Of a stretch of 64,000 nucleotides of DNA, positions 25,034 through 26,395 are shown piece after piece. The stretch comes from a virus: the IMG/VR virus record IMGVR_UViG_3300032284_001716, positions 1 through 64,000 of that record; one strand, given 5' to 3'. The position numbers and the translations under genes were made by a program. Below the pieces are notes generated by a model. It ran no database searches, had not been told where the DNA came from, and saw only the letters and a program-made list of their open reading frames with translations. Position 1 is the first letter of the stretch, and the number at the start of each line of letters is the position of its first letter.

Positions 25034-26395
25034 ATGATTAAGCAACTGGCCGCAATCGGAATGGCCTTAACAACCTCTACAGTAGCTCTTGCTACCGATC
25101 TTCCGTCAAAGCGAGCTGCTCCTGCATCCTATGTTAAGATTTGTGATGCGTATGGTGCAGGTTTCTTTGCTATTCCTGGAACCGACACGTGTGTCCATAT
25201 TGGTGGTATGGTTCGTTATGATACGTTCTATGTTCCATCTCAGGACGTCTATAAGATTACATCCGGCGCTAAGGCAATTGCAACCGCTAAGGATGTAGAG
25301 AATACTCTTGGTAATGAGGTTCGTGGCCGTATCGATCTTGATGCGCGCACCGCAACCGACTATGGCACTCTCCAGACTGTCGTGAGCTCACGTCTTGGTC
25401 GTACGAGTGGTGCTCTTGCTGATCTTGGTGCACCTACTGGTGCTACTCAGTCTGCAACAACGACTACCCCTATTATGGAAGCTGCCTACATGCGTTGGGC
25501 TGGTTTCACTGCGGGTATCGCACGTGATAACTTCCAGTATATGCCTGTTGTTACCTACACAGGTAACCAGCACTGGGCATCATTCTCAAACGGTGCAAAG
25601 CAGCTTGCTTACACTGCTGTGATCGGTGGCACTGGATTGTCAGCGACTGTAGCTATTCAGGATCCTACTGATACCGCAATCGCTCCTGTTGGTATCACAT
25701 CTCTTGCCACTGTTTACTCAGTCAATCGTACTCCACAGGTTAACGGTCGCATTGACTATGATCAGTCGTGGGGTGGTGTAGCTGTGATGGGTGCAACCCG
25801 TCAGGCAAATGGTATCGATCCAACTGGTGCAGTCTATGACAAGACTGCAAACGTTTGGGCGGCTGGCGCTGGTGCAAAGATCAATCTGCCATTCCTCGGT
25901 AATGGTGATGCGATCTATTTTACGGCTAACTATGCTAACGGTATGACTGAATATACCGACTCGTATGGTTCTAATAAGGCGTCTGCAAACGTCAAGCGTG
26001 ATGTTGGTGGATATGCTTTGAACCAGCCTAGTGTTGTGTATGGAGCAAACGGTCTTGAGCTTGTTAAGTCATGGAACGTAGGCAGCGCGCTTACCCATAA
26101 CTGGAATGATAAGTGGAAGTCGAACGTGTTTGGTTCCTACGGCACTATCACTGCGCCTGCTACCTCTGCTGCACTCGTGTGGGATGGTAAGGTTGGATTC
26201 GGTGATGCCAAGATGTGGAGTGCAGGTACTAACCTGACTTTCAGCCCTGTCAAGGACTTTGATATTGGTGTTGAGGGTATCTACTCTAACATGAAGCAGG
26301 ATGTTCGTTATACACTGGCTAGCTCGACTAATATCGTCACTAGCGAGTCACAGAATAACTGGACAGCGCGCGCTCGAGTTGAACGCCGCTTCTAA
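25034..26395 (+). CDS. Outer-membrane porin of the alphaproteobacterial Porin_2 type
   Basis: 453 aa from ATG 25034 behind AAGGAGTC. Signal peptide 1-21 (ends VALA-TD). The mature start DLPSKRAAPASYVKICDAYGAGFF and GTDTCVHIGGMVRYDTFY are hallmarks of Hyphomicrobiales porins (Brucella Omp2-like), with a conserved cysteine pair. Repeated amphipathic strands follow (EVRGRIDLDART, GYALNQP, WTARARVERRF), and the last residue is Phe, the BAM insertion signal. It is complete and should insert as a 16-strand-type trimeric pore. It overlaps the next gene (TAATG). Possible roles: receptor masking, nutrient uptake, or altering the host surface. Confidence 0.9.
   Translation: MIKQLAAIGMALTTSTVALATDLPSKRAAPASYVKICDAYGAGFFAIPGTDTCVHIGGMVRYDTFYVPSQDVYKITSGAKAIATAKDVENTLGNEVRGRIDLDARTATDYGTLQTVVSSRLGRTSGALADLGAPTGATQSATTTTPIMEAAYMRWAGFTAGIARDNFQYMPVVTYTGNQHWASFSNGAKQLAYTAVIGGTGLSATVAIQDPTDTAIAPVGITSLATVYSVNRTPQVNGRIDYDQSWGGVAVMGATRQANGIDPTGAVYDKTANVWAAGAGAKINLPFLGNGDAIYFTANYANGMTEYTDSYGSNKASANVKRDVGGYALNQPSVVYGANGLELVKSWNVGSALTHNWNDKWKSNVFGSYGTITAPATSAALVWDGKVGFGDAKMWSAGTNLTFSPVKDFDIGVEGIYSNMKQDVRYTLASSTNIVTSESQNNWTARARVERRF

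Follow-up and report, generated by a model that had tools for sequence, protein, structure and literature searches.

A Porin_2-family outer-membrane porin held in an exchangeable, tRNA-linked barrel slot of T4-like phages

The Lc and NmpC proteins of E. coli are general porins carried by lambdoid phages or prophages, and PMC11677980, citing Blasband 1986, places nmpC on a defective lambdoid prophage. A viral OmpL porin has been described beside glnK-amtB in viruses of Bacteroidota type, where it is part of a nutrient (PII-Amt) cassette (PMC8115048). Outer-membrane barrels also occur on large phages, some of them T4-like. Small outer-membrane proteins (OMPs) are encoded by Ochrobactrum phage vB_OspM_OC (Kyanoviridae), Sinorhizobium phage Phosso and Agrobacterium phage Atu_ph07, and OMPs or porins are annotated in viral structure predictions, including those of Aeromonas phage phiAS5 and Vibrio phage nt-1. 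The barrels of these five phages are small and do not belong to Porin_2, and no slot exchange is reported for them in the literature searched. Neither phage-encoded porins nor phage-encoded tmRNA returned anything as topics in the open-access literature searched.

The locus described here lies in a stretch of 64,000 nucleotides (the window), positions 1 to 64,000 of the viral record G000, which is 99,511 bp long. The carrier is a large virus of freshwater-type bacteria. The porin had been predicted to sit on a lytic T4-like phage, and the T4-like part is borne out by gp20 portal, gp32, gp59 and baseplate genes in the same record. The gp23 gene was not found in the 99.5-kb record; it is present in a sister contig of 167,756 bp (G002), so that T4-type hallmark genes accompany the porin in two contigs. 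The closest gp32 proteins in the phage collection are those of cyanomyoviruses. No tyrosine integrase (PF00589) was detected in either record, each of which may be incomplete, and a lytic life is therefore likely, if presumptive. Matches to the late-promoter motif ATAAATA (18 against 13.6 expected) were uninformative. The features around the porin gene are as follows.

24544..24910, + strand: permuted alphaproteobacterial-type tmRNA with tag ANDNAPLVMALAA (Rfam RF01849, 111.6 bits; RF04321, 106.6 bits; ARAGORN)
24918..24994, + strand: tRNA-Arg (UCU), 39 nt 5' of the porin (ARAGORN, Rfam)
25023..25028, + strand: Shine-Dalgarno sequence AAGGAG, 5 nt 5' of the ATG (direct reading)
25034..25093, + strand: signal peptide of about 20 aa (sequence, heuristic scan of the identical L003 N-terminus; cleavage site inferred)
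25034..26395, + strand: Porin_2 family 16-stranded outer-membrane porin, 453 aa (Pfam, structure, phage and cell relatives, dN/dS)
26395..27519, + strand: PP-loop-like protein with an SGGSDS motif, its start overlapping the porin stop (TAATG) (sequence)
27607..29094, + strand: radical SAM/SPASM protein (Pfam PF04055, PF13186)
30345..30929, + strand: gp59 helicase loader, a T4 core gene (Pfam PF08993, phrog_269)
31010..31930, + strand: gp32 ssDNA-binding protein, a T4 core gene (Pfam PF08804, phrog_224)

The same AAGGAG precedes barrel genes in other phages. The PP-loop-like protein has no Pfam match. One phage genome holds at least four related proteins of this kind (26395-27519 in the window, 15808-16899 in L068, 1431-2732 and 3582-4826 in L069), one of which is followed by a radical SAM/SPASM protein; they may belong to a modification pathway. 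The tmRNA tags of related T4-like contigs are diverse (ANDNNASRLALAA, ANDNNAYEMALAA, ANDNFAPRMALAA and others).

The porin gene is a stop-free frame of 453 codons translated to a C-terminus ..ARARVERRF, and its product matches PF02530 (Porin_2) with E=1.3e-45 and 156.8 bits (cutoff 22), over profile positions 8-353 of 357. This agrees with the original prediction of a complete alphaproteobacterial porin, and the parts listed in it are all present in the sequence, the alignment and the 16-strand model: signal peptide, conserved mature N-terminus, cysteine pair, strand pattern and terminal Phe. The signal peptide would be cleaved at MIKQLAAIGMALTTSTVALA|TDLPS. Across 57 homologues Cys37 and Cys53 are invariant and F453 is nearly so. 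An AlphaFold2 model computed from the alignment of these 57 homologues reached pLDDT 81 and pTM 0.81; sixteen barrel strands were counted in its DSSP string, and pLDDT fell below 50 only in the first 30 residues and in two other short segments. A sequence search of the PDB gave no match, so the fold was compared instead. Foldseek against the PDB placed outer-membrane channels and porins on top (DcaP, OmpT, MOMP, OmpF), the solved structure 6eus among them with E=2e-18. The earlier prediction that the protein should fold in this membrane is supported. PHROGs gave no match. The frame almost certainly encodes a functional porin.

The cellular porins closest in kind are the Porin_2 proteins of Beijerinckiaceae and other Hyphomicrobiales (e.g., L004-L008). 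At about 50% identity they have in common with the phage protein the PF02530 domain, the cysteine pair, the predicted 16-strand barrel, the mature N-terminus DLPS..A.P..Y.KICDAYG.GF..IPG and the C-terminal R.ERxF. The phage copy differs from them in its GC3, its near-constant loop length and its mostly lower dN/dS. The likeness to the porins of lambdoid prophages, which the original prediction had brought in, is apt as an analogy and would lie in the possible effect: the window porin is no member of the Lc/NmpC group, being of another family than those porins of temperate phages and having a T4-like carrier, no detected integrase and a swappable slot. It is likewise a porin gene in a viral contig like the viral OmpL, with different neighbours, namely tmRNA and tRNA, PP-loop and radical SAM genes.

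With the neighbour and profile searches, ten distinct phage porins are known, including that of the window, all ending in Phe and all with intact frames. The nearest, L003 in the 167.8-kb contig, is 89% identical; the order tmRNA, tRNA-Arg (UCU), porin, PP-loop, radical SAM, gp59, gp32 is collinear between the two, and their tmRNA tags are identical (ANDNAPLVMALAA). A third copy, L002, is 77% identical. The tRNA-Arg (UCU) lies 5' of the porin in L002, L003 and L074 as well. The possibility that the window joins host and phage DNA through misassembly, named in the original prediction as what could overturn it, is refuted: the arrangement recurs in the independent contig L003, several other viral contigs also carry porins, the GC3 of the gene is phage-like, and the cellular homologues found are only about 50% identical to it.

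In trees of 66 porins, and of 36 porins with all ten phage copies, the phage porins form one clade (support 100) within or beside the porins of Beijerinckiaceae/Hyphomicrobiales. The phylogeny proposed earlier for finding a Hyphomicrobiales donor has thus been run, and the phage clade adjoins chromosomal porins of Beijerinckiaceae. Two donor-group contigs were checked and carry cellular genes, FBA (aldolase)/PGK/GAPDH in one case and a molybdopterin-binding oxidoreductase in the other. GC3 is 0.42 in the window porin, 0.26-0.64 in the phage genes measured and 0.73-0.88 in the donor porins. A recent capture from the host is rejected by this GC3 and by the identity of about 50%. The dN/dS is 0.10 between the window and L003; all pairs that include the window porin lie at 0.10-0.28, and the pairs listed at 0.09-0.32. 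Purifying selection acts on the phage porins. From the single clade at about 50% identity, the phage-like GC3 and the purifying selection it follows that the porin is an old, functional resident of phage genomes. The best explanation is a single, ancient acquisition from a Beijerinckiaceae-type host and maintenance by a group of T4-like phages.

A porin on such a phage had been called unusual. This stands for Porin_2, for which a search of 50,697 phage records gave nothing, even with L088 as the query and a threshold of E=1, and not for barrels at large, since related viral contigs often carry small OMP barrels and cultured alphaproteobacterial phages can have them too. Porin_2 on T4-like phages thus appears to be new, while phage-borne OMPs in general were already known. 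Distant Porin_2 genes were also seen in L148-L157, viral-classified contigs, several of them from isolate genomes, where they could be cargo of prophages or part of flanking host DNA.

In several related loci the position by the tRNA/tmRNA genes and 5' of the PP-loop gene is occupied by an 8-strand OMP instead of the porin. The PP-loop gene served as a slot marker in 42 viral loci. The alternative protein has 175-183 aa, a signal peptide, a terminal Phe and a match to PF13505 (OMP_b-brl); its model, of moderate quality (pLDDT 70), shows eight strands. The small OMPs of vB_OspM_OC, Phosso and Atu_ph07 are homologous to those of the related contigs, which hold the porin's slot in L082. Between L076, which has the porin, and L082, which has the small barrel, the flanks on either side are 80-82% identical in DNA. 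In the junction alignments homology breaks about 15 nt inside the barrel frame and returns at the stop codon, and L143 and L075 show the same break points against L082. Judged from these alignments, the exchange in L076/L082 is gene for gene. The PP-loop tree makes L076 and L082 sisters (support 100/99) and places the window with contigs that have the small barrel; its well-supported branches cannot be explained by fewer than three changes of barrel type. The 167.8-kb sister contig has the porin and, elsewhere, a small barrel. No report of such a slot was found in the open-access literature searched, and it appears to be new.

Several other observations concern this region. A conserved membrane peptide of about 40 aa (MIRAAYIIAALLFLMAGLLLW...) begins at or adjoining the barrel stop codon in porin and small-barrel versions alike (starts at 9799 in L076, 9794 in L082, 9800 in L075, 9371 in L143 and 3015 in L079). 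A second hydrophobic frame (WLEIAxAIAICNWMAL...) lies just upstream, with no obvious start codon past the 3' end of tRNA-Gly. A porin of a different family, Porin_4, occurs at 84% identity in a 337-kb contig (L092 684-2190) and a 20-kb contig (L233 8001-9116); in the former, which has a T4-type Gp23, it stands in a similar setting, directly 3' of a tmRNA with tag ANASNDETFALAA. The relatives L070, L072, L081 and L076 carry large arrays of 18 to 25 tRNA genes per retrieved stretch, including ARAGORN calls of tRNA-SeC (UCA) and tRNA-Pyl (CUA), possibly suppressor tRNAs.

Among the retrieved viral loci, 52 of the 73 distinct barrel genes (porins 9/10, small barrels 43/63) have a tRNA or tmRNA gene no more than 300 nt away; the share is 14.5% for 660 other ORFs of these loci, and the counts are related by descent. 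Since such a neighbourhood is a typical site for cargo, the porin might be a mere passenger acquired beside tRNA genes and of no benefit to the phage. Such an origin is disfavoured and very improbable given a dN/dS of about 0.1, the intact frame in all ten copies and the phage-adapted codon usage. Alternatively, the exchange itself may stem from a hot spot of recombination next to the tRNA genes, filled by barrels that are functionally unrelated.

What the 16-strand porin and the 8-strand OMP have in common is bulk presence at the outer membrane. The porin would be made during infection, leave the cytoplasm by Sec and enter the outer membrane via the host BAM machinery, so that the infected cell would display it. 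That an 8-strand OMP fits the same locus suggests that the property selected is probably the bulk insertion of a new outer-membrane barrel, not the transport of one substrate. The likeliest effect would be that host surface proteins serving as phage receptors are diluted, replaced or masked, and the phage would gain superinfection exclusion or lose fewer progeny to debris. A substrate-specific role would be lost in such an exchange, unless the two barrels serve unconnected functions, and remodelling is favoured for this reason. Remodelling of the outer membrane with receptor dilution or masking is the best explanation at present, and is held tentatively. Of the three roles suggested originally, receptor masking, changed permeability and nutrient supply, a change of the surface fits best because the slot also takes an 8-strand barrel, and substrate-specific nutrient supply fits less well.

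Permeability and nutrition would make the porin an auxiliary metabolic gene that increases the uptake of small solutes during infection. The modelled 16-strand fold of general-diffusion type with an L3 loop is consistent with this, as are the strong conservation of L3 among close phage copies (24/24 between the window and L003) and the viral OmpL adjoining amtB/glnK in Flavobacteriales-type viral contigs (PMC8115048). This role is nevertheless unlikely. The porin's slot is taken in close relatives by an OMP of the 8-strand class, and no substrate-specific transport genes were found among the porin neighbours examined (tmRNA, tRNA, PP-loop, radical SAM, gp59, gp32). Proteins of the 8-strand class are usually without a large pore.

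Both barrel classes are abundant structural OMPs in Hyphomicrobiales. On this basis a role in envelope maintenance may be considered, in which an abundant OMP supplied by the phage keeps the outer membrane intact and the BAM machinery busy during host shut-off; the tRNA/tmRNA setting would support long expression. The slow turnover of OMPs puts the need for such a supply in doubt, and many relatives found through gp59 lack a recognised barrel in the retrieved stretch, which makes this role improbable.

The outer loops of the porins were compared using strand boundaries taken from the phage porin model, with L3 excluded. At a strand identity of 0.5-0.6, outer-loop identity is 0.57 with gaps of 0.03 in phage porin pairs, against 0.29 (maximum 0.45) with gaps of 0.21 in 102 cell-cell pairs; the contrast is also present in the 0.6-0.8 bins. 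Pairwise alignments independent of the MSA gave 4.8 indel events in phages against 9.1 in cells at 0.55-0.65 identity, and 1.0 against 6.5 at 0.65-0.75. In close pairs the loops mostly have 0.5-1.8 times the dN of the strands in phages and 1.3-3.3 times in cells, with the exceptions of window-L003 (3.0) and one cell pair (0.9). Unlike those of cellular porins of equal strand divergence, the outer loops of phage porins change little in length and evolve at a rate mostly near that of the strands, a lead and not proof because the phage porins form one clade with few independent points. A porin that is the target of an arms race might have fast-changing loops, which was counted against remodelling, as was the faster change of loops than strands in the window-L003 pair.

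Going further, the alphaproteobacterial T4-like phages may keep a dedicated tRNA-linked locus at which whole barrels that differ in size are swapped gene for gene, any abundant foreign OMP serving to renew the surface and exclude other phages. Displayed on infected cells only, the loops would no longer diversify as in the hosts. This extension is possible and rather doubtful.

If remodelling is true, phages use complete barrels, one replaceable by another, to rebuild the outer membrane of the cells they infect, as was known chiefly for prophage porins. A locus that holds either a 16-strand or an 8-strand barrel would be a natural experiment on pore versus surface function. Because the phage copy would be displayed on already infected cells only, comparing phage and host porins may offer a way to ask whether predation drives the fast evolution of loops in bacterial porins.
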